From an uncultured Flavobacteriales bacterium (GTDB lineage: Bacteria; Bacteroidota; Bacteroidia; Flavobacteriales_F; PHOS-HE28): a stretch of 64,000 nucleotides of DNA. How positions within the stretch are numbered: position 1 is the first letter of the stretch; each line of letters starts with the position of its first letter. Both the position numbers and the translations under genes were made by a program. The stretch covers positions 1 to 64,000 of the forward strand of contig CALMPI010000013.1 of assembly GCA_937872175.1 (NCBI GenBank). Direction: 5' to 3'. The notes under the pieces were generated by a model that was given only the letters and a program-made list of their open reading frames with translations, was not told the origin of the DNA and searched no databases. Positions 35,031-51,666 of the stretch are shown here, piece after piece.

Positions 35031-36503
35031 TTATTCCGTGTACTCCAGCACGAACCCGTAGATCCGCATCGAGCCGCTGTTCGTGTCGGTGGCCGAACTG
35101 CCGCGCCGGCGCATGGTCATGGTCAGCACCCGTGCGCCGCTCGCGAAATTGCCACCGGCCGCAAGGCCTTCCATCAGCACATCGGCGCTCGTGGGGCCCG
35201 GCACCACCAGGCCGCCACCGCCGGGCATCAGGTTCATCGTGGCCCCGAGCGCATAGCCGCGCGAGAACCAGCTGCAGTCGTAGGTGCCGCCCGCTTCATC
35301 GCCGCTGTAGTACACCCGCAGGAGCACGTTCGTCGCGTTGAAGCCCTCGGGCAGCGGCAGGGTGAAGTTGATGTCGCCCGTCACCCCGTCGGAGAAGTTC
35401 AGGCAGGGGTAGCCCAGCGCATCGGCGGACAGCGAGGCCTCCCCGTTGCCGAACGAGGCATCGATCATGGACGGCATGATCTCGATGCGATGCGTCCTGC
35501 CCTGCCAGCTGGCCGCGCCGTTCGCATCGCTCGTCAGCACCTTGCCGCTTCCTTCGGTGCCATCCGTCAGTTTGAAGGAGCCGTTCACATCAAGTGTCGC
35601 CTGCGGGAACTGCTGGCTGATGCCCACGTTGCCACCGGGCTCCACCGTGACGCGGGCTCCGACGTTGGTCTCGTTGATGTTGAAGCTGTTCGGCCAGATG
35701 CTCAGGTCCCAGCCCGGCTGGATGATGGCCCCGTCCATGTTGAGCGAACCCTCGAGGCGCTGATCGCCGATGACATGCAGCGGCCAGGCCGGTGTGGTCG
35801 TTCCAACACCCACGTTCGTTCCATCGTCGTACACCAGCGAATTGCCGCCCGCATCCGGCGCCGTGAACTTCACCAGGTGATTGATGTCGCCGCTGATGTT
35901 CGCCGATCCCGGCGGTCCCTGCGGGCCCTGGGCCCCATCGGCGCCATCGGCCCCGGCGGGACCTGCCGGACCTTGGGCACCGTCCGCGCCATCGGCACCC
36001 GCCGGACCTGGCGGACCAGGAGGTCCGGCCGGACCTTGGGCTCCGTCCGCGCCATCCGCCCCGGCGGGGCCGGGATCACCCTGCGGACCTTGTGGACCGG
36101 CAGGACCCGGGATGCTGCTGCCGCTCTCCTTCGCGTACAGCGCGTAGGGCACGCTGAGCAGTTGCGAGGTCCCCAGCACACTGCCGTTCAGGGAGGTGCG
36201 GGCGAAGTACGGACCGGCCGACCAGTCGATGGTGGCGAAGGTGCCGTTGAGCACGGTGCCACCGCCGATGTTCACGTTCACCAGGCCGTAGTCGTTGCTC
36301 ACCACCGCGTGGTCCTCGGCGTAGACCGTGGGTCCGTTCACCGAGCCCTGCACGATGTCGATGGTCAGCGTACCCGCCGTGTTGGCCTGGGCGTTGCCGT
36401 TCGCATCGCGCAGGATGGATTGATAGCGGATCAGCTCCGGCGACTGGCCGAAGCCCATCTGCGCGGTGAGCACCGCCGCAAGGAAAAGGGTCGTGTTCTT
36501 CAT
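35031..36503 (-). CDS. secreted collagen-like (GXY repeat) protein
   Basis: 490 aa. Signal peptide (about 1-19), N-terminal beta domain (about 20-125, ending [13 protein letters not shown], common to Bacteroidota fibre proteins), a collagen-like stretch of about 23 GXY triplets (about 130-200, [19 protein letters not shown]), a fibre or trimer region ([24 protein letters not shown]) and a C-terminal globular domain (about 340-490) without an evident sorting domain. Probably a trimeric surface filament. It is transcribed 12 nt downstream of a small T9SS gene, a pairing often seen in this phylum. Confidence 0.85.
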
Positions 36504-36515
36504 GGTCGTTCAGGT

Positions 36516-37010
36516 CTAGCGGATCACGTTGATCTTGAAGGTCTCCTTCGGGCCTCCCCCTGCATCGTGAAGGCGCAGGTAGTAGGTCCCCGTCCGATAA
36601 GCGGTCATGTCCAGCTCCATGGTGGAGCCCTGTACCCGTTCGGTGCGCACCAACCGGCCTTCAGCGTCCATCAGCTCCAGGCCGGCCGCCTGTTCGGGAT
36701 GATCGAGCACCACATGCAAGGTCGATCGCACGGGATTGGGGAACACGTGGATCCCGGCACCCGCCTCGATGGCGCCGCTCACTTCGGTGGTGACCACCGC
36801 CCAGGGTTGTTCGAACCCCTGGGTGAGCACCTGGGTCCCATCCGTCACGGTCTCCAAGATGGGCTCCCCGATGGTCCAGCTCATCCGATCGTTGCCGACC
36901 GTTCCTTCTCCGTTGCCGGTGGAGAACAGCTCTTGTGCGTTCAGGGCCCCGGAAACCGTCGCTCCGGCGAGCAGCGCGAGCATCGCTCGTCCTCGTTCAT
37001 GTGTGTTCAT
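36516..37010 (-). CDS. small T9SS sorting-domain protein
   Basis: 164 aa. Signal peptide (about 1-25), a short beta domain (SWTIGEPILETVTDGTQVL, QGFEQPW) and a T9SS type A sorting domain from VFPNPVRSTLHV to FKINVIR (about 88-164). Small proteins of this type commonly precede collagen-like or fibre genes in Bacteroidota. Its ATG overlaps the stop of a small upstream frame (ATGA), suggesting an older operon that may have been cut by the CRISPR island. Confidence 0.82.
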   Translation of the reverse strand: MNTHERGRAMLALLAGATVSGALNAQELFSTGNGEGTVGNDRMSWTIGEPILETVTDGTQVLTQGFEQPWAVVTTEVSGAIEAGAGIHVFPNPVRSTLHVVLDHPEQAAGLELMDAEGRLVRTERVQGSTMELDMTAYRTGTYYLRLHDAGGGPKETFKINVIR

Positions 37011-37216
37011 GGGTCGTTGTTCGGGATGTTCACCGGCACCGCTGCACATCCACCGGCTTCCCTGGAGCAGGCGGGCATGATCGCCAGCCCTCCCGACCCC
37101 AGGTACCGCAGTGTGCCATTGGCGCCGGTCCAAAGCACGTGGCGTGGATCCCTCGGCGCAATCATTGAGCTCAATGGATCCCACGCGCAGCGCCCGGTCG
37201 CGCTCATTGGGTCCAA
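37007..37216 (-). CDS. possible remnant of an upstream gene
   Basis: A short frame whose stop overlaps the next ATG by 4 nt. The segment DPRHVLWTGANGTLRYLG then GSGGLAIMPACS looks protein-like, but no family is recognisable and no good start exists; TTG 37216 is formal. It may be the 3' end of a gene disrupted when the adjoining DNA was rearranged. An AATTG-free palindrome, CATTGAGCTCAATG, lies at 37163-37176. Confidence 0.3.
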   Translation of the reverse strand: MDPMSATGRCAWDPLSSMIAPRDPRHVLWTGANGTLRYLGSGGLAIMPACSREAGGCAAVPVNIPNNDP

Positions 37217-37282
37217 TGATGGTGGGTGGTGCTCTGGATCACGGAGCCCACATCGACCCGGTGATCCAGGTCAGCGCATCGT

Positions 37283-37457
37283 TCATCGCGACCCGCGACC
37301 TCCGCCCGCCCACAGCCCCAGCGCCACCACCATCGGCAGCAGCCACGCATCGCGCGCCAGGTAGCGCGGGTCCACCACGCTGAGGCTGGCGCACGCCCAC
37401 GCGCCGATGAGCACCACGGCGAAGGCGAGGGCCACCGCCATGCGCACCGGAGCGGCG
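37283..37457 (-). pseudogene. detached 3' end of the membrane protein gene at 50284-51666
   Basis: In the frame of the membrane gene, 37457-37301 encodes the same residues (MAVALAFAVVLIGAWACAS to GLWAGG) and then ends GRGSR followed by a stop at 37283. This is likely the original C-terminus. The rest of the gene lies 13 kb away on the far side of the CRISPR island. Confidence 0.8.
37301..37457. repeat. 157-bp direct repeat, left copy, flanking the CRISPR-Cas island
   Basis: Identical over all 157 bp to 50341-50497, same orientation. Flanking bases differ immediately on both sides (GACC and TGCT here, CGCG and GTCC on the right). Confidence 0.97.
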
Positions 37458-37510
37458 TGCTTGCCGCGCGAAGCGTGGACGCAGAGCCATAACGGACCAT
37501 GCAAGGCCTG

Positions 37511-37588
37511 TAGCCGGGTTGCAGCCCGGTGGTCGATCCTCATGGTTCGGGTGAGCTACCTTGGGCCACCGGGCTGCAACCCGGCTTT
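37511..37588. repeat. REPIN-like inverted repeat abutting the array
   Basis: Arms 37511-37532 and 37567-37588 are inverted copies (21 of 22 match), each itself a near-palindrome around GGGTTGCAGCCC. The 34-nt centre holds TACCTTGG (37557-37564), a -7-like box facing the array. The right arm overwrites the first nine bases of the first CRISPR repeat. Confidence 0.75.
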
Positions 37589-40500
37589 CAGGTCAAGATC
37601 TTTGACGAGCTGTGACACCTGTGGCCGGGGAAGGATGTACGGATGACCTGTTGTGAAAGGCTTTCAGGTCAAGATCTTTGACGAGCTGTGACACCTGGTA
37701 GATGGTTCCGTTGCTGATAGCCCAAGTTGTGAAAGGCTTTCAGGTCAAGATCTTTGACGAGCTGTGACACCGATCACGTTGTCCCATCCGTGAACTTGGC
37801 AGTTGTGAAAGGCTTTCAGGTCAAGATCTTTGACGAGCTGTGACACCCCATCTGATCGCCGGTGACCGCATCTGGCAGTTGTGAAAGGCTTTCAGGTCAA
37901 GATCTTTGACGAGCTGTGACACCGCTTCCAGTCGTTCCTCGATAGCCTTGCGGTTGTGAAAGGCTTTCAGGTCAAGATCTTTGACGAGCTGTGACACCCC
38001 AAGGGGGCACGTAGTCGTTCATCGTGACGTTGTGAAAGGCTTTCAGGTCAAGATCTTTGACGAGCTGTGACACCGAAAGCGAGATCCGAACGCACACCAC
38101 CATCGTTGTGAAAGGCTTTCAGGTCAAGATCTTTGACGAGCTGTGACACCATCCGGCCCCGTCCGGTTGCGCAGCACTTCGTTGTGAAAGGCTTTCAGGT
38201 CAAGATCTTTGACGAGCTGTGACACCCGTGCTCCTTCAGCACCTCCACCAACAGGCGTTGTGAAAGGCTTTCAGGTCAAGATCTTTGACGAGCTGTGACA
38301 CCGCCGTCCGTACTACGCATTGCGCAGTGCAGTTGTGAAAGGCTTTCAGGTCAAGATCTTTGACGAGCTGTGACACCTACCTACTCCAATCCGTCGCCCA
38401 TGATCGCGTTGTGAAAGGCTTTCAGGTCAAGATCTTTGACGAGCTGTGACACCCAATTGGCCGCCATGCTGCTTTGCATCATGTTGTGAAAGGCTTTCAG
38501 GTCAAGATCTTTGACGAGCTGTGACACCTGTATGGCACAACGGAGCGCCCAAACGAACGTTGTGAAAGGCTTTCAGGTCAAGATCTTTGACGAGCTGTGA
38601 CACCAAGTATGCCGATGCCATGGGCAGGCTGTGGGTTGTGAAAGGCTTTCAGGTCAAGATCTTTGACGAGCTGTGACACCCGGGGATGTCCAGGCCGAAG
38701 ACGTCCAAGGGTTGTGAAAGGCTTTCAGGTCAAGATCTTTGACGAGCTGTGACACCCTTCCGCCTTCACGTTGCGTGCTGGTGTGGGTTGTGAAAGGCTT
38801 TCAGGTCAAGATCTTTGACGAGCTGTGACACCACGAGCCTTTCGATCAGGTCGCGCAGCTCCGTTGTGAAAGGCTTTCAGGTCAAGATCTTTGACGAGCT
38901 GTGACACCCTGTTCGCTCTTGTGGCCGCTGCCACGCTTGTTGTGAAAGGCTTTCAGGTCAAGATCTTTGACGAGCTGTGACACCGACGCTGACGTGCCGT
39001 AGCGATGACTTCCCGTTGTGAAAGGCTTTCAGGTCAAGATCTTTGACGAGCTGTGACACCTGACCCTCGCCGAGGTGGGCCGCACCGGCGGTTGTGAAAG
39101 GCTTTCAGGTCAAGATCTTTGACGAGCTGTGACACCCAACCCCCGGTCCTGTCCGGGCTAAATACTGTTGTGAAAGGCTTTCAGGTCAAGATCTTTGACG
39201 AGCTGTGACACCCCGAACATCCACGCCGACCTGTGTAGCCGTGTTGTGAAAGGCTTTCAGGTCAAGATCTTTGACGAGCTGTGACACCTCGCTACCTGTC
39301 CACCTTCTTTGAACAGGTGTTGTGAAAGGCTTTCAGGTCAAGATCTTTGACGAGCTGTGACACCCTTGCTAACGCGAGGGCCTTTGGCGAGCGTGTTGTG
39401 AAAGGCTTTCAGGTCAAGATCTTTGACGAGCTGTGACACCAACGTCCATCGGTATCAGCTTGGAATACAGGTTGTGAAAGGCTTTCAGGTCAAGATCTTT
39501 GACGAGCTGTGACACCGAGATCGTGCGGCAGCGCAAGTTGTCCAGCGTTGTGAAAGGCTTTCAGGTCAAGATCTTTGACGAGCTGTGACACCGATCTGGC
39601 CAAGCTGAACTACCGCAAGGCGGTTGTGAAAGGCTTTCAGGTCAAGATCTTTGACGAGCTGTGACACCCGCACCGAGCAGCTCCACCGATACCAGCAGTT
39701 GTGAAAGGCTTTCAGGTCAAGATCTTTGACGAGCTGTGACACCTGGCCGGGCCTAACGACGACCTGCCCTTCTGTTGTGAAAGGCTTTCAGGTCAAGATC
39801 TTTGACGAGCTGTGACACCACGGCCGATCGGCAGTTGAGTATCCGGGTTGTTGTGAAAGGCTTTCAGGTCAAGATCTTTGACGAGCTGTGACACCGACAG
39901 CACACCCGTAACACTTTGACCATGTGTTGTGAAAGGCTTTCAGGTCAAGATCTTTGACGAGCTGTGACACCCGCCGCTGGATCGTCCATGCCCGCGCAGG
40001 CGTTGTGAAAGGCTTTCAGGTCAAGATCTTTGACGAGCTGTGACACCGCGGCCGCGTGCAGCTCAACGGGGTGCGCCGTTGTGAAAGGCTTTCAGGTCAA
40101 GATCTTTGACGAGCTGTGACACCTTAGCCTTTAGCCTACCGGGCAGAGTGATGTTGTGAAAGGCTTTCAGGTCAAGATCTTTGACGAGCTGTGACACCTT
40201 ATCCCATAGGCGTTTGCCGATCCAGCTGTTGTGAAAGGCTTTCAGGTCAAGATCTTTGACGAGCTGTGACACCAGGTATCCTTTGCCGAGCACGTCGATG
40301 TTGGTTGTGAAAGGCTTTCAGGTCAAGATCTTTGACGAGCTGTGACACCACCCCCGGCGTAGTGGCCGGACGGTAGAGCGTTGTGAAAGGCTTTCAGGTC
40401 AAGATCTTTGACGAGCTGTGACACCTAACGCACGACAACTATGCCGCGTTGGCTCGTTGTGAAAGGCTTTCAGGTCAAGATCTTTGACGAGCTGTGACAC

Positions 40501-43500
40501 CCCTTCCAGCGGCGAAACCTCGGGCTGGAGTGTTGTGAAAGGCTTTCAGGTCAAGATCTTTGACGAGCTGTGACACCAATGGGATAGCATGAACGCGGAG
40601 CCGACGGTTGTGAAAGGCTTTCAGGTCAAGATCTTTGACGAGCTGTGACACCGGTGAACGTGAGGCTGTGGGTGATCAGATTGTTGTGAAAGGCTTTCAG
40701 GTCAAGATCTTTGACGAGCTGTGACACCCGGGCCTGCGTCAACCCTCCTGCGTTGGTGTTGTGAAAGGCTTTCAGGTCAAGATCTTTGACGAGCTGTGAC
40801 ACCCATCGGCTGCGAACGCGAGGCCGAGTACGTGTTGTGAAAGGCTTTCAGGTCAAGATCTTTGACGAGCTGTGACACCCAGCAGTTCGGAGCGCTCGGC
40901 GGTGGTCATGTTGTGAAAGGCTTTCAGGTCAAGATCTTTGACGAGCTGTGACACCTCCTTGGCCGTCCGCATCCACCAGGAGCGCGGTTGTGAAAGGCTT
41001 TCAGGTCAAGATCTTTGACGAGCTGTGACACCGCCTTCGTAGAGGATCGTGGTATCCCCCTGTTGTGAAAGGCTTTCAGGTCAAGATCTTTGACGAGCTG
41101 TGACACCCCTTCTTCGGTCTGCCACGCTGGGCGCTCAGTTGTGAAAGGCTTTCAGGTCAAGATCTTTGACGAGCTGTGACACCGGTCGCTCACATCGTGA
41201 CAGTCCATGATGTGTTGTGAAAGGCTTTCAGGTCAAGATCTTTGACGAGCTGTGACACCTCCAATGCCACGATAAGACCCCATGGACGTGTTGTGAAAGG
41301 CTTTCAGGTCAAGATCTTTGACGAGCTGTGACACCGGCCGCGCGCTCTTCCAGCCGTTGGGCTTTGTTGTGAAAGGCTTTCAGGTCAAGATCTTTGACGA
41401 GCTGTGACACCTTCGTGGGCCAGGGCATCGCCGCAGGCATGTTGTGAAAGGCTTTCAGGTCAAGATCTTTGACGAGCTGTGACACCCGACCCCGACAGCC
41501 TTGCCGCCGTCATCGGTTGTGAAAGGCTTTCAGGTCAAGATCTTTGACGAGCTGTGACACCCCCGTGGAGCTGCCCGCGTGGGGCCAGACCGTTGTGAAA
41601 GGCTTTCAGGTCAAGATCTTTGACGAGCTGTGACACCATGATGAAACCGCCGACGGCCGCAGGGAGTGTTGTGAAAGGCTTTCAGGTCAAGATCTTTGAC
41701 GAGCTGTGACACCCAGCAACACCTATGTGAACGTCACGGGCCTGTTGTGAAAGGCTTTCAGGTCAAGATCTTTGACGAGCTGTGACACCGCAGCGAAAGC
41801 GTGCTGCCGCTCACCGTGCGTTGTGAAAGGCTTTCAGGTCAAGATCTTTGACGAGCTGTGACACCTCGATGATGCTGCCGGAATAGCCTTGCGGCGTTGT
41901 GAAAGGCTTTCAGGTCAAGATCTTTGACGAGCTGTGACACCCCGACCATGTGCCGTCCCCGTTGTCCCTGAGTTGTGAAAGGCTTTCAGGTCAAGATCTT
42001 TGACGAGCTGTGACACCAGCATCAATGGCATCGTGGCCTGTATCGATGTTGTGAAAGGCTTTCAGGTCAAGATCTTTGACGAGCTGTGACACCTGCAGCC
42101 AGCGCACCGGCGCTTCCGCCGCGTTGTGAAAGGCTTTCAGGTCAAGATCTTTGACGAGCTGTGACACCGGACCGGCCTGCGGTACTTGGGCCAGTACTGT
42201 TGTGAAAGGCTTTCAGGTCAAGATCTTTGACGAGCTGTGACACCCGGGGGGCCGGTAACACGGCGCAGCGTCTCGTTGTGAAAGGCTTTCAGGTCAAGAT
42301 CTTTGACGAGCTGTGACACCTCAGCGGCCAGCGTGTCGTTGTTCTTCTCTGTTGTGAAAGGCTTTCAGGTCAAGATCTTTGACGAGCTGTGACACCTGGA
42401 CGGCACCTGGCCGCTGAGCGTGTTCGTTGTGAAAGGCTTTCAGGTCAAGATCTTTGACGAGCTGTGACACCGGTACCAATGCTCGTTACCGCTTGCCATC
42501 TGTTGTGAAAGGCTTTCAGGTCAAGATCTTTGACGAGCTGTGACACCACCTGGATGCCGCCTTCGGCGTGTGTTGGGTTGTGAAAGGCTTTCAGGTCAAG
42601 ATCTTTGACGAGCTGTGACACCACGCGGCCGTGCAGGTTCGAGCCCTGCCCTGTTGTGAAAGGCTTTCAGGTCAAGATCTTTGACGAGCTGTGACACCAC
42701 CATGGGTGGCCGGCCCAACTACGAGCTCGTTGTGAAAGGCTTTCAGGTCAAGATCTTTGACGAGCTGTGACACCTCCGTTGAGGTAGGGGGTGATGCGGC
42801 GTTGGTTGTGAAAGGCTTTCAGGTCAAGATCTTTGACGAGCTGTGACACCGGTACTCGGGCATCATCTCGCTCCAGCTCAGTTGTGAAAGGCTTTCAGGT
42901 CAAGATCTTTGACGAGCTGTGACACCGGAGACTTCCTGGAAAACGACGCCAGCACAGTTGTGAAAGGCTTTCAGGTCAAGATCTTTGACGAGCTGTGACA
43001 CCCTTGTCGGCATCCTTGACGCCCATGCGCTCGTTGTGAAAGGCTTTCAGGTCAAGATCTTTGACGAGCTGTGACACCGGCTGTCGTCGTGGACACTTGC
43101 AGATAACGGTTGTGAAAGGCTTTCAGGTCAAGATCTTTGACGAGCTGTGACACCGCGATGAAGGCGAAGCTGCCCCCCATCCTGGTTGTGAAAGGCTTTC
43201 AGGTCAAGATCTTTGACGAGCTGTGACACCGTGATGTACTGGTGGACGGCGATGTGCATGGTTGTGAAAGGCTTTCAGGTCAAGATCTTTGACGAGCTGT
43301 GACACCGGTGGCTACATCGGTAAGCTCCACGGTCCAGTTGTGAAAGGCTTTCAGGTCAAGATCTTTGACGAGCTGTGACACCGGTCGCCCCGGCGGGGGT
43401 GCAACGCCACGTGTTGTGAAAGGCTTTCAGGTCAAGATCTTTGACGAGCTGTGACACCATTCGCCCTTGCTCCTCGCAGTGCACAGCAGTTGTGAAAGGC

Positions 43501-44745
43501 TTTCAGGTCAAGATCTTTGACGAGCTGTGACACCCCCTGCCTGTCAGGGTCGCCCATATACCCGTTGTGAAAGGCTTTCAGGTCAAGATCTTTGACGAGC
43601 TGTGACACCACGGCGGCCACGTTGTTACGAACCACCATGTTGTGAAAGGCTTTCAGGTCAAGATCTTTGACGAGCTGTGACACCCCCCTTCCGGGACAGC
43701 CAATCGTGGATGGCGTTGTGAAAGGCTTTCAGGTCAAGATCTTTGACGAGCTGTGACACCCTCTAGCCGGTACGTCGTGTTCCGCGTTTTGTTGTGAAAG
43801 GCTTTCAGGTCAAGATCTTTGACGAGCTGTGACACCAGCAGTCGTCCTCCATCACCAGGGCGTAGGTTGTGAAAGGCTTTCAGGTCAAGATCTTTGACGA
43901 GCTGTGACACCCAGCACCAGCAGCCAGCACTGCACCGGCCAGTTGTGAAAGGCTTTCAGGTCAAGATCTTTGACGAGCTGTGACACCATCACGGCGGGGT
44001 CGCCGCTGGCTGAATGAGTTGTGAAAGGCTTTCAGGTCAAGATCTTTGACGAGCTGTGACACCTCCCCTGACGATAGGCCGACATGAAGGCGGGTTGTGA
44101 AAGGCTTTCAGGTCAAGATCTTTGACGAGCTGTGACACCTGCGGGCTTGGAATGTCAGCACGGCGCGCCGTTGTGAAAGGCTTTCAGGTCAAGATCTTTG
44201 ACGAGCTGTGACACCGTGACCCTTCTGCAGGACGAGGAGGAGCCCGTTGTGAAAGGCTTTCAGGTCAAGATCTTTGACGAGCTGTGACACCGGTCAGGCG
44301 CGTCGTAGCTCAGCTGGTCCAGTTGTGAAAGGCTTTCAGGTCAAGATCTTTGACGAGCTGTGACACCCGTCCCCTTCGTCGTCGCCATCGTCGCCGGTTG
44401 TGAAAGGCTTTCAGGTCAAGATCTTTGACGAGCTGTGACACCAAACGACCTCGCTAGGCATGTCGCTTCAATGTTGTGAAAGGCTTTCAGGTCAAGATCT
44501 TTGACGAGCTGTGACACCGTCGGCCAGTTTATCGGTCGGTCGTATCCCGTTGTGAAAGGCTTTCAGGTCAAGATCTTTGACGAGCTGTGACACCCAAGCC
44601 ATGAACGAACGAAAGTCCGAGCTGTTGTGAAAGGCTTTCAGGTCAAGATCTTTGACGAGCTGTGACACCCTCGAACGAAATGCCTAGCGGGGGCGATGTG
44701 TTGTGAAAGGCTTTCAGGTCAAGATCTTTGACGAGCTGTGACACC
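37574..44745 (+). CRISPR. type II-C CRISPR array, 95 repeats, 94 spacers
   Basis: Repeats are 46 nt, beginning GTTGTGAAAGGC and ending CTGTGACACC. Starts counted from 37650 to 44700 give 94 intact repeats, plus a first one (37574-37619) that is degenerate in its first nine bases. Spacers are 30 nt except nineteen of 29 nt and one of 31 nt. No base change was noticed in intact repeats. Orientation with GTTGTG at the 5' end matches the tracrRNA anti-repeat at 50244-50261, so crRNAs read left to right. Repeat positions 2-4 (TTG) and 24-31 (GATCTTTG), 19 nt apart, resemble a Bacteroidota promoter. A terminator follows at 44820. No AT-rich leader is evident on either side. Confidence 0.98.
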
Positions 44746-44819
44746 ACGCACCGTCGGAACCGCTACAGCCACGCGGTTTCCGGCCAACAGGGACGATGGG
44801 GAAAACGGCACAGCCGAAA

Positions 44820-44847
44820 GGCCCTCTGCGATGCAGGGGGCCTTTTT
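44820..44847. terminator. bidirectional terminator between the array and cas2
   Basis: GGCCCTCTGC / GCAGGGGGCC (one G-T wobble, 3-nt loop) followed by TTTTT on the plus strand. On the minus strand it lies 12 nt after the cas2 stop and is followed by CTTTCGG. The array transcript and the cas operon converge here. Confidence 0.8.
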
Positions 44848-44858
44848 CGTGGGGGCCA

Positions 44859-45191
44859 TCAGAACATCTCCAGCTGCTGGGGCGTGTCCGGGGCGTCCAT
44901 CTTCTTCTTGCCCTCGAAGAACTGGATCATGCCGAACTGCTTGTCCGTGAGGGTGAACAGGATGACCTCGCCGGCCGGTGGCAACAGGGCCTTCACCCGG
45001 CGGATGTGCACCTCCGCGTTCTCCGCGCTGTTGCAGTGCCGCACGTAGATGCTGTACTGCATCATGGTGAAGCCATCGGCCTTGATCTCCTTGCGGAACC
45101 GCGCGTGGTTGCGGCGGTCCTGGCGCGTCTCGGTGGGCAGGTCGAAGAAGACAAAGACCCACATGATCCGGTATTCATCCAGGCGGCCCAT
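44859..45191 (-). CDS. cas2: CRISPR-associated endonuclease Cas2
   Basis: 110 aa, ferredoxin fold. Metal-site Asp in VFVFFDLPT (Asp17), then RFRKEIKADGFTMMQYSIYVR and the C-terminal strand FTLTDKQFGMIQFFEG. The homodimer bridges Cas1 dimers in the adaptation complex. 18 nt downstream of cas1 and last of the cas9-cas1-cas2 operon. Confidence 0.96.
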   Translation of the reverse strand: MGRLDEYRIMWVFVFFDLPTETRQDRRNHARFRKEIKADGFTMMQYSIYVRHCNSAENAEVHIRRVKALLPPAGEVILFTLTDKQFGMIQFFEGKKKMDAPDTPQQLEMF

Positions 45192-45209: not shown

Positions 45210-46115
45210 TCATGGCCGCTCGGGATAGAGCACCTTGCGCTGCTCGCCTTGAAAGCACTGGGCCAGGGTGGCGGTGGTGCGTTGGGCGGCCACCAGCAGG
45301 GGGCTCCGCTTCCCGTCGATGAGCACGTCCATGGCAGGCAGCGACAGCAGCCGCCCTTTGAGCGCGTTGGTCAGTTCCGAACCATCCAGCCGCTCGGTCA
45401 CCACCATCTGCCACACCAGCCGGTCCACCCACGGGCGGTAGGGTTCCATGATGTCGTCGGCCAGGCAATAGGCGTTGTACTTGTTGCGGTGGTGGATACC
45501 GTAGGTGGGCAGCAGCCCGCTGCCCACCAGGTTGCGGGCCACCACCGCCCGCAGGATGGCATAGCCGTAGTTGAGCAGGTTGTTGGGCGGCGGACCGGTG
45601 CGGTGCCGCACGAACTGGATCGCCGGAGGGAACAGGAAGCGCCAGTAATGGGCCGCACCGCGCGCCTCCAGGTTGTCCGGATCGCCGCTGCGCACGTTGC
45701 GGGCATGCTCGCGCAGCGTGTCCCCGGGGGTGCCGGCCTCCTCCAGCACATCGGCCTGGTTGCGCAGCTTGGCCTGCACGGTCTGCATCCACAGGTTCTT
45801 GCGCAGCGGCTCGCTGGCTTCGATCTGGGCCTTGAACAGCTCGGTCTGCGTGGTGTGGCCGTCCAGGTTCAGCAGCAGGCCGGTGGGCATGTGCTGCTCG
45901 TTGCAGGTGATCACCGCCACGTTGTTCGCCAGCAAAGCCGCAAGCAGCATCTGGGTGATGACCACGCGCTCATGGTCCAGGATCAGCACCCCGATGTCCT
46001 CGATGGGTACGGACTTGTCCTCCAGGCCCAGCTCCTTGGGGTAGTGCAGCACCAGTTGCTGCTCGCGGCGCCGGAGCGTACACGGGTTGCCGATATGCAG
46101 GGTGCGCTTGATCAA
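45210..46115 (-). CDS. cas1: CRISPR-associated endonuclease Cas1 (type II-C)
   Basis: Spacer integrase, 301 aa. N-terminal beta domain (about 1-95) and helical catalytic domain. Metal ligands are visible at Glu150 (LEARGAAHYW), His208/209 (YGIHHRNKYNAY) and Asp220-Glu224 (LADDIMEPYRP). The start overlaps the cas9 stop by 4 bp. With cas2 and cas9 this is the minimal type II-C set; there is no csn2 and no cas4. Confidence 0.97.
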   Translation of the reverse strand: MIKRTLHIGNPCTLRRREQQLVLHYPKELGLEDKSVPIEDIGVLILDHERVVITQMLLAALLANNVAVITCNEQHMPTGLLLNLDGHTTQTELFKAQIEASEPLRKNLWMQTVQAKLRNQADVLEEAGTPGDTLREHARNVRSGDPDNLEARGAAHYWRFLFPPAIQFVRHRTGPPPNNLLNYGYAILRAVVARNLVGSGLLPTYGIHHRNKYNAYCLADDIMEPYRPWVDRLVWQMVVTERLDGSELTNALKGRLLSLPAMDVLIDGKRSPLLVAAQRTTATLAQCFQGEQRKVLYPERP

Positions 46116-49100
46116 AACGATAGAGCTTCAACCCTACCTAGGCGATCGAGCCGCACCGGAAGGCACACTTGGGAAACCTTGGTTCGTGGACTATCCCTGT
46201 CTTCAAACTCGGATGCGTTCTGGCTCCCGTACTCTGTCACCTCTTTTCCAAGGTTGACAGGGCTCGAAATACTTGCGGCAAGGAAGTAGAACTGCTTTCC
46301 CGACATCTGTGTCATCCGCATGATGCGCTCGCCCACATACTCCGTGTCCTTCCAGTCGATCGACCGCGCATCCTCCCCCGGTCTGGGCACATAGACCAGG
46401 TCATTTTTCCGCAGCAGGAAGTGACGGTGGCCGGGTCGGGCATCCACCAGGTCCAGGCCCTTGAGCCTCCGCTCCACAGCGTCGAAGAAGGGGACCACCT
46501 CGAACGCCCGCTCACCGGTGGCCTCGTTCACGAAGACGGCCAGGGCATGGTTCTCGCCCTTTTCCACGTGCAGCTTGCGGTTGGTGTCGCCGTGGCGCAG
46601 GAAGCGTGTGCGGCCCATCGCCTCGCCCACGAGGGCCTCGTCCATGCGACAGCGCACCTTGCGCACGGGCACTTTCAGACCCTGGTTCAAGAGGTAGAGG
46701 GCCTCTTCCGTGAAGGCCTTCTTCGGGTCGTTGCCGTGGGCCTTGAGGTGCTCGCGCACCACGTGCTGCGCGCGCTTGTCGATGATCTTCTCCACCATCT
46801 TCTCGGTGAACGTCGGTCCCAGGTTGCGGGTGATCGTGTACTTGGGCACCAACACGGTGAGGGCCTCCACGCGTTCGTTCCGGGCGTTCACCAGCGGGTC
46901 CTTCCGGAGGGCCTTTTTCATCCGCTCCACGTTGCCCTCGTACTTCGCGAGGTGGGCATGCAGCCACTGTGCTTCGTGCGCATGGGCCAGGAAACGTTCG
47001 TCGTAGCCGGGCTCGCCGGGTCCTTTGGGGCTCACTGCGCCCAGGGGGTCCGGCCGTTCGCTGAGGTGGGCGATGATGTCCTTCAGCGGCCATTTGCGCT
47101 GTTCGCGCACCTCGCCCAAGGGCTGCTCGTTGTGGAGCGGGCCTCGGACGGCACGCAGATCGCCCTTGGTCTGTTTGCGCAGGGCGGTTGTACCGGTCTT
47201 CGGGTCCACCAAATGACGGGTGTGATTGGCTGCCTTGGTGAGCAGGCGCTGCCGGTTCTTGATGCTGGGGATGGTGCGATCCAGCTGCTCCTTCACCAGG
47301 CGGCGCAGGTCGGGGTGGGGCAGGGGGTACCAGGTGGGCCGCTTCATGGCCTCTTTCTCCGCATCGCTCAGCTTGAGTTGGTTCATGGTGCTGAGCCGTT
47401 GGATGTAGCCCTGTCGGGTGAGCGCTACGGTGAGGGCATCCAGCGCATGATGCCGGTGGTCGATGCGCTTGTCGTAGCCTTCGATGCGCCAGTCCCCATG
47501 GCCATTGCGACCGGGAACCGGCTCCACCAAGGTGCGGCCTGTAATGCGTTCCAGTCGTTCAAAGCGGGGGAGGAGCACCTCCTTGAAGACCTTGTCCAGC
47601 CCCCATTCGTTCTTGAGCGTGTCCGTGATGATGCCCAACGTGCTGTGGACCGGGCACACGGGCTGGAGCAGTTCGGTGAGCTTGGTGCCGATGTACCGCG
47701 TCTCCTGCAGCTGTCGATTGATGAAGCTCTCCGGGACTTCCTCGGCGAGCAAGTACTTCTTCTTGGTGCGCCCGATACGCAGGCTGTTGACGCGGTCCAC
47801 GTACGCCTCCCAGGCCCCGGTCCCCTTGGCCTTCATGTACAAGGCGGCCAGCTGCTTGTCCTTGTTCGCGTTCTCCTCCCGCAGGCAGAGCACCCGGTTC
47901 TGGATGCTATCGTCGAAGTACAGGGCCCGTGGGATGATGTGGTCGACGTCGGTGTCCCGCGTGTCGAAGAGCTGTGTCCGTTCAATGGGGTTGCCGCTGT
48001 AGATGCAGCGATGCTCCTGTTGCACCCAGAGCTCGTAGCGTTCGATGTCCTTTCGGCTTGGCTTGGGCCGGTTGAACTCGTGCACCAGGCGTTCGAGCAC
48101 CTCCTTGCGTTCCTTGTCGCGTTTGCGGTTGTTGTCGAAGCTCCGTTTGCGCTGCTCCTGGTTCTGGCGCAGTTCCCGTGCCAGCTCCACACGGATGCTC
48201 GTCGGTCTGCCGTGGGTCGTCCAGATGTCGCGCACGATCATCCGGGCCTCATTGATCACTTGTTCCACGACCGGGTTGCGGAGGAATCCGCGGGGCATGG
48301 TTCTGATCTCTTCGGGCTTCTCATACGGCTTGCCGCCCGTGCTGCGGTGATCGCCGTACAGCACGGAGGCCGCCAGCCAATACGGCAACCCTTGGAAGTG
48401 GTGGGGTGCGGTATACGCAGTGAGGCGGACACGCACCTCGTTGGGCAACCGGTCGATCTCCTCGCCAGTGGCCACCTTGTCGATCACGTCCTGGATGCGC
48501 CGCTGATCCCGAACGGGAACGTCCTCCCAGCGCCACACATCGCCATTGCCCATCAGGGGGAGCAGGCGCATGGCGGCGCGTGCCGAGACGGCCCCGTGCT
48601 TGCGGTCAAAGCGAACCTTGGCGAGCGCATCCAGCTCATCACCGGGGATCCCATCAATGGCGGCCAGGGTTTGGCGGCGATGCTCCTCCGTGGGGATGGA
48701 GTAGAGGATGTGCCAGATCCGGAACAACAAGGTTCCCTGAAGCCCGGCGGCACGGGAGGCCTCATGGACCAAGCGGTCCCAGATCGCCGATGCCTTCAGC
48801 CTGGGCCGCAGGGCGGCCAGGGTTTGGTGGCCGGGCAAGGCGGCGCGCAGGTTGTTCTCCATTGGTTCGTCCTTGCGACCGATGCACTTCAGCAGGTTCT
48901 CAGGCTTCAGCTCCTTGTGCTCCAGCAGGTGCTTCAGCACCGTGTTCCGTTCAGCCGCGCTCAGGTCGTGTTCCTTCCCGTAGCGATCGATCAGGCGGAT
49001 ATTGTTCACCTGTTGCAGGATCCGGAACAGCTGGTGGATCGGCGAGCTGACCGGCATGACCGGTTTCTGCGGCTCGAAGCGGCATTGCCCCTTGCTGCTC

Positions 49101-50143
49101 CGCTGGCTCTTCAGCGGTCGTTGGAAGTAGATGACATGGTCACGGATAAAGGTTCCGAGGTCCCGGTTCAACCACTTTTTCTGTTCCACCTCGTTGCGTG
49201 GGATCAGGGCCAGGACCACCCGGTCGCGCAGGACCGGATCCGCAAGCCGGGCATGGGCTTTCACTTGTCTCGCCCAGATCTGATCGAATTCGTTCTTGTA
49301 AGTGTCCCGCAGGACGATACGTTCACGGATCCTGTAGAACGGGTCGTCCTTCAAGGCGTGGAGAAAGAACTGGCCTGGGGTCAGGCCGCTCGCATCGATC
49401 GCCTGGTTCAAGCTCTCCATGCCTTTACGCCAGTCGGTCTTCACGGGAAGCCGGAATTCGATGGAGGTCCCACGCTTCGTTTCCTTCGTGGTGATCTCCA
49501 GTTCCTGGTCGGACCCCTCCATCTCCTTCATGGTGGCGATGGTGGCGGTGCCTTCTCGTCCATCGGCAAGGGTGACCAGGTACTTTACTTTCCTTCCCTT
49601 CGCGTCATCCACTTCCACCTTGGCGACATGGACGCGTTCGATGCTCTTGCCATCATCCTTATCGGCTTCCGGTGCAGCGCCGTCCTGTTCATCCATGAGG
49701 TCCCCGATGTCCTTGTATCCGCGCCGCTGGTTCATGTGGTAGAGGATCCTGCCCAGCTCCGGGAGTGCAACAGGATGGTCCACCGCCATGGCCCGCAGGC
49801 CGTACAATTGAAGGCTTGTCAGCAACGGTAATACCTCACTTCCTTGTTCACCAAGGGTTTCCGGCCATGCACCGATCAGGTGCAGTGCCTGAACGAGCTT
49901 GGCGCGCCTAAGCTTGTAGCGCTGATGATTACGTCGCATGCTTCGCTTCTGCCTTCGGGTCGCGTTCTTCGTGATGCGCTTGCCTTCCTGGTATTCCTTC
50001 AGTTCAGGGCCCATGGGGATGATCCGGCTGCCCATGGCATGGATGCGCTCCAGACGATCCGCGTTCATTTCGACCACGGCCCAGCCGACGCTGTTGCTTC
50101 CCACGTCAAGCCCTACGATCAGCTCGTTGCTCTTCTCCATCAT
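46112..50143 (-). CDS. cas9: CRISPR effector Cas9 (type II-C)
   Basis: 1343 aa, longer than small II-C proteins (about 1000-1100) but in the range of long Bacteroidota forms. RuvC-I LIVGLDVGSNSVGWAVV (Asp13), arginine-rich bridge helix (about 57-90; NATRRQKRSMRRNHQRYKLR), RuvC-II IRVELARELRQN (Glu653), HNH DVDHIIPRALYFDD (His735), RuvC-III DHRHHALDALTVAL (895-908). All catalytic residues are present, so it should cut both strands. Two adjacent ATGs (50143 and 50140) follow a TATTTACA stretch; an upstream frame to 50209 overlaps the tracrRNA promoter region and is less likely. PAM not inferable. Confidence 0.98.
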   Translation of the reverse strand: MMEKSNELIVGLDVGSNSVGWAVVEMNADRLERIHAMGSRIIPMGPELKEYQEGKRITKNATRRQKRSMRRNHQRYKLRRAKLVQALHLIGAWPETLGEQGSEVLPLLTSLQLYGLRAMAVDHPVALPELGRILYHMNQRRGYKDIGDLMDEQDGAAPEADKDDGKSIERVHVAKVEVDDAKGRKVKYLVTLADGREGTATIATMKEMEGSDQELEITTKETKRGTSIEFRLPVKTDWRKGMESLNQAIDASGLTPGQFFLHALKDDPFYRIRERIVLRDTYKNEFDQIWARQVKAHARLADPVLRDRVVLALIPRNEVEQKKWLNRDLGTFIRDHVIYFQRPLKSQRSSKGQCRFEPQKPVMPVSSPIHQLFRILQQVNNIRLIDRYGKEHDLSAAERNTVLKHLLEHKELKPENLLKCIGRKDEPMENNLRAALPGHQTLAALRPRLKASAIWDRLVHEASRAAGLQGTLLFRIWHILYSIPTEEHRRQTLAAIDGIPGDELDALAKVRFDRKHGAVSARAAMRLLPLMGNGDVWRWEDVPVRDQRRIQDVIDKVATGEEIDRLPNEVRVRLTAYTAPHHFQGLPYWLAASVLYGDHRSTGGKPYEKPEEIRTMPRGFLRNPVVEQVINEARMIVRDIWTTHGRPTSIRVELARELRQNQEQRKRSFDNNRKRDKERKEVLERLVHEFNRPKPSRKDIERYELWVQQEHRCIYSGNPIERTQLFDTRDTDVDHIIPRALYFDDSIQNRVLCLREENANKDKQLAALYMKAKGTGAWEAYVDRVNSLRIGRTKKKYLLAEEVPESFINRQLQETRYIGTKLTELLQPVCPVHSTLGIITDTLKNEWGLDKVFKEVLLPRFERLERITGRTLVEPVPGRNGHGDWRIEGYDKRIDHRHHALDALTVALTRQGYIQRLSTMNQLKLSDAEKEAMKRPTWYPLPHPDLRRLVKEQLDRTIPSIKNRQRLLTKAANHTRHLVDPKTGTTALRKQTKGDLRAVRGPLHNEQPLGEVREQRKWPLKDIIAHLSERPDPLGAVSPKGPGEPGYDERFLAHAHEAQWLHAHLAKYEGNVERMKKALRKDPLVNARNERVEALTVLVPKYTITRNLGPTFTEKMVEKIIDKRAQHVVREHLKAHGNDPKKAFTEEALYLLNQGLKVPVRKVRCRMDEALVGEAMGRTRFLRHGDTNRKLHVEKGENHALAVFVNEATGERAFEVVPFFDAVERRLKGLDLVDARPGHRHFLLRKNDLVYVPRPGEDARSIDWKDTEYVGERIMRMTQMSGKQFYFLAASISSPVNLGKEVTEYGSQNASEFEDRDSPRTKVSQVCLPVRLDRLGRVEALSF

Positions 50144-50229
50144 TGTAAATAGTTCAGGCCTAGCTGACCATCGGAACGTTGCTGAACCGGTTCGACAGCT
50201 GAGCGGCATGAAGATATACGACCGTACTC

Positions 50230-50237
50230 TATCTTCG
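50230..50237 (+). promoter_or_regulatory. -7 box TATCTTCG of tracrRNA
   Basis: 7 of 8 matches to TAnnTTTG, placed so that transcription begins just before the anti-repeat. It diverges from cas9. Confidence 0.6.
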
Positions 50238-50241
50238 CAGC

Positions 50242-50333
50242 GACCTGAAGTCTTTCACAATAAGGATCATTCCGTTGTGAGAACTAAGCTTCAAGGCTTA
50301 TCCGCGGCCCCGAAAGGGGTCGCGGTCTTTTTT
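50242..50333 (+). ncRNA. tracrRNA
   Basis: About 92 nt. The anti-repeat GACCTGAAGTCTTTCACAAT (50242-50261) is complementary, with a small bulge, to the 5' half of the CRISPR repeat (GTTGTGAAAGGCTTTCAGGTC region). AAGGATCATTCCGTTGTG follows, forming the short stem of II-C tracrRNAs, then a second stem (AAGCTTCAAGGCTT) and a strong terminator hairpin (50302-50325) with six T at 50328-50333. The ends are inferred. The terminator also lies antisense inside the last codons of the neighbouring membrane gene. Confidence 0.88.
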
Positions 50334-51666
50334 CCCCGCGTCCGCCCGCCCACAGCCCCAGCGCCACCACCATCGGCAGCAGCCACGCATCGCGCGCCAG
50401 GTAGCGCGGGTCCACCACGCTGAGGCTGGCGCACGCCCACGCGCCGATGAGCACCACGGCGAAGGCGAGGGCCACCGCCATGCGCACCGGAGCGGCGGTC
50501 CCCCGGCGGAGCAGGAGCAGCAGGCCGCCGATCGCGGACAGCCCGAGCAGCAGCGCATGCACCCGGTCGAACACGCTGCTGTTCAGGCGACCCCTCGCCG
50601 TGGTCTGCCAGGTGCGGCGGAAGGCGTGCAGCTCGTGCGGCAGGTGCTGTTCCACCATGCGGTAGGGTGGCGTCGACGCATCGCCGAACCAGGGGCTCAT
50701 CACCCCGTCGGCCAGGGCCGTGGCCGTGAGCTGTTCCGCCGTGGAGCCGATGCTGGCCCGCAGATGCCCCGCGAGGTAGCGCGGCTCGGTGAGCGTGCCG
50801 CGCACGATGCGGCCGTACTCCTCCCGCGTGGCCTCCCAGCCGCCCTGGCGCTGCAACGGGCTCTCCGGGTACCACAGGAAAGCGCGGCTCGTGGCCGGCA
50901 GGCTGTCCAGGTAGGCGCAGATGCCGTAGCGCTCGGTGGGGCAGTGCTCCTGCAGCCAGGGTTGCAGGAGGCCGGCATCCACCAGGCGGCCCATCAGGAA
51001 GACGTGGCTGGCGCGGCTCACCTGCGGCGCGCCGGTGAGCAGTCCGTTCGCCGCGTAGAGGCCGGCCCATGCACAGCCCGTGAGGGCCACCGCATGCACC
51101 GCCGCACGCCGTCGCGGGCGCGGGGCCAGCAGCACCGCCACGCCGCCCACCACGGGCAGGATCACCAGGTTGCTCAGGTGGCACCAGCACGCCAGCAGCA
51201 CGAGCGCGACATCGAACGCGCGCCATGGCCACCGTTCGTTGCGGAGGATGAGGAAGGCCATGCTCACGGCACCCACGGCCGTCAGGACATCGGGCATCAC
51301 CTGTCCCGCGAACCAGCCCAACCCGGTGAACGGACCGAGCAGCACGCACAGCACCACGGTGGCGACCGCCGCGCGGGTGGGTGGAAGCAAAAGATCCGCG
51401 ATGCGGTGGATGGCGAGCGCACACAGCAGCGCCTGCACGACCACCACGGGCCAGAGCGTGGCACCGCCGAAGCTCAGTCCCCGGATGAAGAGGCCATACC
51501 AGAAGGGGCGATCGATCGGTACCAGGCCCTCGAACGCGCTGGCCAGGTAGGTGCCCGTGTCGGCATACACCAGCGGATAGCCGTTCACCAGCGGCACAAT
51601 GAGCACGCCCAGAGCGCCGAGCAACACGGCCAGGCCGTTGGTGAGGTGCGGTGGACGTGCGGACAT
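50284..51666 (-). CDS. polytopic membrane protein, possible GT-C-type transferase, with altered C-terminus
   Basis: 460 aa, about 9-11 membrane helices. A conserved first periplasmic loop NGYPLVYADTGTYLASAF with acidic residues, shared with the next gene, resembles the layout of GT-C lipid-sugar glycosyltransferases, but the family is not identified. The last 17 residues (after GLWAGGR) are translated from the antisense of the tracrRNA terminator. The probable natural end, GRGSR, is at 37283 beyond the CRISPR island. 16 nt downstream of its paralogue, in one operon with the cyclase. Confidence 0.8.
   Translation of the reverse strand: MSARPPHLTNGLAVLLGALGVLIVPLVNGYPLVYADTGTYLASAFEGLVPIDRPFWYGLFIRGLSFGGATLWPVVVVQALLCALAIHRIADLLLPPTRAAVATVVLCVLLGPFTGLGWFAGQVMPDVLTAVGAVSMAFLILRNERWPWRAFDVALVLLACWCHLSNLVILPVVGGVAVLLAPRPRRRAAVHAVALTGCAWAGLYAANGLLTGAPQVSRASHVFLMGRLVDAGLLQPWLQEHCPTERYGICAYLDSLPATSRAFLWYPESPLQRQGGWEATREEYGRIVRGTLTEPRYLAGHLRASIGSTAEQLTATALADGVMSPWFGDASTPPYRMVEQHLPHELHAFRRTWQTTARGRLNSSVFDRVHALLLGLSAIGGLLLLLRRGTAAPVRMAVALAFAVVLIGAWACASLSVVDPRYLARDAWLLPMVVALGLWAGGRGEKRPRPLSGPRISLEA
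50341..50497. repeat. 157-bp direct repeat, right copy
   Basis: Identical to 37301-37457. It begins 7 nt after the tracrRNA terminator T-run and lies inside the 3' part of the membrane protein gene. Confidence 0.97.

Follow-up and report, generated by a model that had tools for sequence, protein, structure and literature searches.

Repeat-borne promoters are known from type II-C CRISPR arrays, including that of Neisseria meningitidis. In the II-C system of Campylobacter jejuni, every repeat carries a promoter—an extended sigma-70 −10 box (GGTAAAAT) at the repeat end—from which RNA starts inside the spacer, and one tracrRNA/RNase III cut suffices to form the crRNA 3′ end (PMC3656092). Within the Bacteroidota, a TTG in the repeat has been proposed as a −33 element in Flavobacterium columnare (PMC8092290), a proposal repeated for F. 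psychrophilum (PMC10309648). For CRISPR1 of Riemerella anatipestifer, with its 47-nt II-C repeat, no repeat promoter was found and a leader promoter was proposed (PMC5006608). The 47-nt II-C repeat of Bacteroides fragilis was published in the opposite orientation, in a text in which the word promoter is absent (PMC9367070); read on the other strand, that published sequence contains TTG-N19-TATCTTTG, the perfect form of the Bacteroidota −33/−7 pair considered below.

A type II-C locus with 94 identical repeats

The window—the whole 64,000-nt stretch of DNA analysed here, from an uncultured Flavobacteriales bacterium—harbors a complete type II-C locus comprising cas9, cas1 and cas2 as its only cas genes, together with an array and a tracrRNA (Table 1). 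A leader region of 113 nt separates cas2 from the repeats, and the tracrRNA gene lies upstream of cas9 on the plus strand. A strong intrinsic terminator on the plus strand between array and cas2 fits plus-strand transcription of the array towards cas2, beginning at the leader-distal end. Repeat orientation, anti-repeat and terminator agree, which fits an array transcribed opposite to the cas genes and towards the leader.

The open frame of cas9 begins at 50209, adjoining the divergent tracrRNA promoter; by inspection, the true start is probably near 50143, at MEKSNELIVGLDVG (MEKSNELIVG). For cas9 itself no −7-like box scored, and an Rfam search of the window returned no match. The whole CRISPR-Cas locus is flanked by a direct duplication of 166 bp (37292-37457 and 50335-50497; 98% identical) that corresponds to the 3′ end of a membrane-protein-like gene at 50284-51666, an arrangement that would fit insertion or recombination of the locus at the end of this gene. 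At the very start of the window, positions 1-296 form a tandem repeat with a 22-nt unit in 13.5 copies.

Table 1 Features of the CRISPR-Cas locus in the window
Feature	Position	Strand	Remarks
Leader-distal terminal repeat	37583..37619	+	phase start 37574; keeps positions 10-46; TTG lost
CRISPR array	37650..44745	+	94 identical 46-nt repeats, 93 spacers of 29-31 nt each
TTG, candidate −33 box, first full repeat	37651..37653	+	same offset in all 94
GATCTTTG, candidate −7 box, first full repeat	37673..37680	+	same offset in all 94
Predicted start site, first full repeat	37685..37685	+	repeat position 36, a G
GATCTTTG of last, leader-proximal repeat	44723..44730	+	
Intrinsic terminator, leader end of array	44816..44847	+	hairpin −24.4 kcal/mol, z −5.3, then T run
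cas2	44859..45191	−	TIGR01573
cas1, type II	45210..46115	−	TIGR03639
cas9	46112..50209	−	1365 aa as open frame; TIGR01865
TATCTTCG, candidate −7 box of tracrRNA gene	50230..50237	+	its T 12 nt before first anti-repeat base
tracrRNA	50242..50335	+	anti-repeat 50242-50260

Candidate promoter boxes in the repeat and promoters of the genus

A first-pass annotation of this DNA had described, in each 46-nt repeat, TTG at positions 2-4 followed after 19 nt by GATCTTTG at positions 24-31. This description is exact in 94/94 copies, and the 94 instances of TTG-N19-GATCTTTG in the window all lie within repeats, against 0.03 instances expected from shuffling. Because the copies are identical, however, the box match counts as a single observation. 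For a random 46-mer of the genus, the chance of presenting TTG and five of the six −7 bases on one strand is 0.0016, and that of scoring at least as high as the repeat on a genus-derived promoter matrix is 0.011. From the window alone, the probability of the box match is small, yet not negligible.

This matrix was learned from 259 upstream regions. Twenty stretches of DNA (~363 kb) stood in for the whole genome of the window's assembly, and genes in this high-GC genome were called by codon usage. The matrix finds CTAYCTTYGC, with TA at 86% and 94%, TT at 99% and G at 91%; the general Bacteroidota consensus holds in the genus, TTCG being a common form. The −33 element learned for the genus, by comparison, is weak and hardly TTG. 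At the first −7 position, the matrix has T at 86%, C at 10% and G at 4%. Genus promoters thus mostly keep the first T, and the G that replaces it in the window repeat—which otherwise has five of the six bases of TAnnTTTG—is a real defect. The repeat scores 5.8, versus 12-15 for the best promoters of the genus. The window's candidate promoter is weaker than consensus.

In intergenic DNA of the genus, TAnnTTTG is enriched 12.8-fold and GAnnTTTG 2.4-fold (18 intergenic, 21 coding, P=0.004; counted with CRISPR copies excluded, including the repeats at the contig ends L066-L068). TTnnTTTG, the form found in the genus's other long repeat type (L058, L059: TTCCTTTG, without the A), is enriched 3-fold, and GA and TT are the top two enriched departures from TA. 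A further repeat type of the genus, at the contig ends L066 and L068, reads GCTGTGAATTGATACCGAGCAGTGATCTTTGACATC; it accompanies another Cas9 clade and has GATCTTTG at the same position.

Conservation of the −7 box among related repeats

We gathered Cas9 loci from genomes across the phylum (395) and the family (45), plus 80 named loci on genome contigs, and located and oriented their arrays by script. In 80 distinct long Bacteroidota II-C repeats, the interval 18-21 nt after TTG holds TAnnTTTG in perfect form in 27 cases (0.2 expected) and at least five of the six box bases in 49 (3.8 expected, maximum 11), the expectations coming from 2000 shuffles of the 3′ part of the repeat. When the set was thinned to less than 75% mutual identity, 18 of 29 repeats had at least five bases and eight were perfect, compared with shuffle means of 1.4 and 0.1. 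The real motif ranked first among all permutations of its letters in the long repeats, at every threshold. The expectation that positions 24-31 would be conserved in relatives is therefore strongly borne out.

A promoter matrix for Bacteroidales, built from 325 gene upstream regions with arrays masked, accepted 23 of the 29 repeats from this order at P<0.01 and placed TTG and TA as predicted; the reverse strand scored low. Long Bacteroidales repeats read GTTGTGATTTGCTTTCAAATTAGTATCTTTGAACC..., with TTG-N19-TATCTTTG, and other long repeats carry TACCTTTG, TAACTTTG or TATTTTTG. Corresponding matrices for Flavobacteriales/Flavobacteriaceae, Chitinophagales and Fibrobacterota gave no trustworthy motif and lack the strength to assess the TTTA and TTAG variants. 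Since related bacteria keep the signal in otherwise different repeats, each guide RNA probably has its own start within the array.

Not every part of the original annotation fared equally well. Set against the Bacteroidota −33/−7 promoter, the window repeat shows the 19-nt spacing and five of the six −7 bases. TTG is likewise kept in relatives, but the first repeat bases are invariant across these repeats and TTG also occurs in 36-nt repeat types without a −7 box; it is no independent evidence, and only the −7 box counts. Nor do the boxes account for the repeat length of 46 nt, as had been suggested: the 36-nt repeats of three loci (L075, L084, L088) hold both boxes at the same positions, which leaves the length unexplained by the promoter design. 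The design also does not extend to the whole phylum: many Bacteroidota II-C repeats, among them those of the 36-nt Flavobacterium type and of several long types, lack a −7 box, and their arrays must be transcribed in another way.

The box in relation to the tracrRNA and the array ends

In the window, the anti-repeat pairs with repeat positions 2-21 only, and GATCTTTG consequently lies outside the duplex. Positions 2-21 are also those paired in most loci, with positions 28-31 included in only ~17-20% of 87 loci; tracrRNA pairing does not explain the conservation of the box. The tracrRNA genes of the genus themselves have TAnnTTYG, or a one-base variant of it, 12 nt before the anti-repeat.

At its leader-distal end, where the oldest repeat of an array stands, the array closes with a truncated repeat that retains GATCTTTG at 37597-37604 and is the best plus-strand promoter-like site in 36500-37660 (a scan of ~1.1 kb upstream). 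No housekeeping promoter was visible upstream of the array, and the plus strand of 36000-37660 contains no TAnnTTYG. Of 40 truncated leader-distal repeats, 39 keep positions 28 onward; uniform break points would put 11 of the 40 beyond position 28 (P=4e-5). The 5′ part, used by no crRNA, is often lost. Retention of the 3′ part fits a terminal repeat kept as a putative promoter for the first spacer, and trimming from outside that stops early would give a similar picture. Adjoining the terminal repeat of the window, and taking the place of its TTG part, is an inverted-repeat element (37509-37589) with GGGCTGCAACCCGG in its arms at 37514-37527 and 37571-37584, which among the loci collected was present only in copies of the same stretch.

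Repeat boxes and host lineages

Beyond the Bacteroidota, 36-nt repeats of Elusimicrobiota have TACAAT or TATAAT at the 3′ end (L239, L241-L243), and a long repeat of the Bacteroidota type in this phylum (L194, from Endomicrobia; L314) reads TTGCTT-N17-TATATT. These boxes are sigma-70-like, instead of resembling the Bacteroidota type, and those at the 3′ end recall the sigma-70 −10 boxes with which repeats of other II-C systems finish. Fibrobacterota repeats hold TAGTTTTA or TAAATTTA beneath Cas9s of several clades. Four Fibrobacterota loci (L299, L300, L307, L311) combine near-identical 48-nt repeats, with the TAGTTTTA box, with Cas9s belonging to three distant clades, an apparent exchange of cas9 beneath a constant repeat. 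Within the window's own family, GATCTTTG occupies positions 24-31 together with two distant Cas9 clades (L060-L062 and L067; L066 and L068).

The box thus looks to follow the host, and independent pairs on the Cas9 tree point in the right direction, at about 4 to 0, although they are too few (p=0.125). A wider reading would be that the II-C repeat is rebuilt to suit the host's primary sigma factor across Bacteroidia and neighbouring groups, and that a system moving between phyla must change its promoter dialect: TAnnTTTG in Bacteroidales, TAnnTTTA/TTAG in Flavobacteriaceae and Fibrobacterota, GATCTTTG in the window's family and sigma-70 in Elusimicrobiota. We put this forward tentatively, dialects included, with the odds in our view leaning somewhat against it.

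Alternative explanations

Were the array transcribed from a single promoter outside it, the middle of the repeat would have to be conserved for another reason, for example as an internal hairpin or as an integration motif for Cas1-Cas2, which recognise repeat sequence in other systems. The window repeat does hold GTCAA-GATCT-TTGAC, TTTGA can pair with an upstream TCAAA in some repeats, and stems of at least 4 bp occur in 13 of 38 boxed repeats, with 4.9 expected. However, the remaining 25 have no 4-bp stem, strong consensus boxes among them (L139, L141, L159, L176), and a hairpin would neither favour TA four bases before TTTG nor fit a matrix learned from unrelated genes. Base pairing may account for the conservation of the box in part at most and, with no external promoter seen upstream of the window array, we regard this explanation as unlikely.

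A little less probable again is a mixed scenario, in which promoters work in long Bacteroidota repeats, especially those of Bacteroidales, and the box of this genus has decayed to GATCTTTG, leaving the array to an unrecognised external or alternative-sigma promoter. It would account for the G in place of the highly conserved first T, common to all members of the genus clade, for the missing A in the genus's other long repeat type (L058, L059), and for the modest intergenic enrichment of GAnnTTTG beside that of TAnnTTTG. Yet a decaying site would not be found at the same position in repeats of two distant Cas9 clades of the window's family and in four further loci (L075, L084, L088, L179), and the departures from TA most enriched in the genus are precisely GA and TT. 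Chance combined with common descent, such that all long repeats inherit one ancestral sequence, we consider very improbable: the repeats are indeed related and the window's own match has a P of ~0.01, but the box is kept in repeats of less than 70-75% identity while bases 32-41 carry little information, and where indels move the box by 1-2 nt it remains whole (L106, L163, L200).

Proposed mode of transcription

The best explanation as a whole, to which we assign a probability of roughly two in three, is that a promoter inside each repeat starts each short crRNA transcript. The first-pass annotation had arrived at the same reading, which is upheld in part, by conservation in relatives, the transcribed strand, the position outside the tracrRNA pairing and the lack of a visible external promoter. 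RNA polymerase would bind each repeat with its −33 contact at TTG and its −7 contact at GATCTTTG, and would start at about position 36, provided that the box occupies −12 to −5, the placement mapped in F. psychrophilum (PMC9723704); the predicted start follows from this geometry and from the tracrRNA layout of the genus, with 12 nt from T to anti-repeat. Each transcript would comprise 11 nt of repeat end, one ~30-nt spacer and the 5′ pairing part of the next repeat, where the tracrRNA would pair at positions 2-21 and RNase III would cut. Transcription would proceed from leader-distal to leader-proximal and end at the terminator before cas2. The one-base variant in the −7 box probably makes each start weak, but 94 copies together with read-through would nevertheless cover the array in full.

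If each repeat does initiate transcription, the processing-light crRNA pathway of Neisseria and Campylobacter would be widespread in Bacteroidia, its promoters written in a different code. Such repeat promoters would escape standard sigma-70 predictors, and in at least one study a predictor not designed for this phylum led to their rejection. The boxes would further allow Bacteroidota II-C repeats to be oriented directly—the B. fragilis repeat as published being reversed—and the 5′ end of every crRNA to be predicted, and it would become testable how host sigma specificity and CRISPR transfer are linked.

Comparison with known systems

The R. anatipestifer locus resembles that of the window in its long II-C repeat and its complement of cas9, cas1, cas2 and array; the predictor applied there was not made for Bacteroidota (PMC5006608). 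F. columnare and F. psychrophilum likewise have Bacteroidota II-C systems with TTG in the repeat, and their arrays are transcribed towards the leader, the direction predicted for the window. In contrast to the present case, only TTG was proposed for them, with no −7 box in the repeat (PMC8092290, PMC10309648), and among the loci analysed here such a box is absent from the 36-nt repeats (GTTGTGGTTTGATTAAAGATTAGAAAACACGATATT) of the Flavobacteriaceae-like type. The literature searched, which omits most subscription papers, holds no description of paired −33/−7 boxes in II-C repeats; as far as it shows, the novelty lies in the −7 half, the −33 half having been put forward earlier for Flavobacterium.

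With Neisseria and Campylobacter, the locus has in common its assignment to type II-C and, on the reading preferred here, one promoter per repeat. It differs from both in that the candidate box is a Bacteroidota −7 element in mid-repeat, with a predicted start ~11 nt before the spacer. As the Campylobacter RNA starts in the spacer and the start here is predicted within the repeat, 5′ trimming may be needed in this system.
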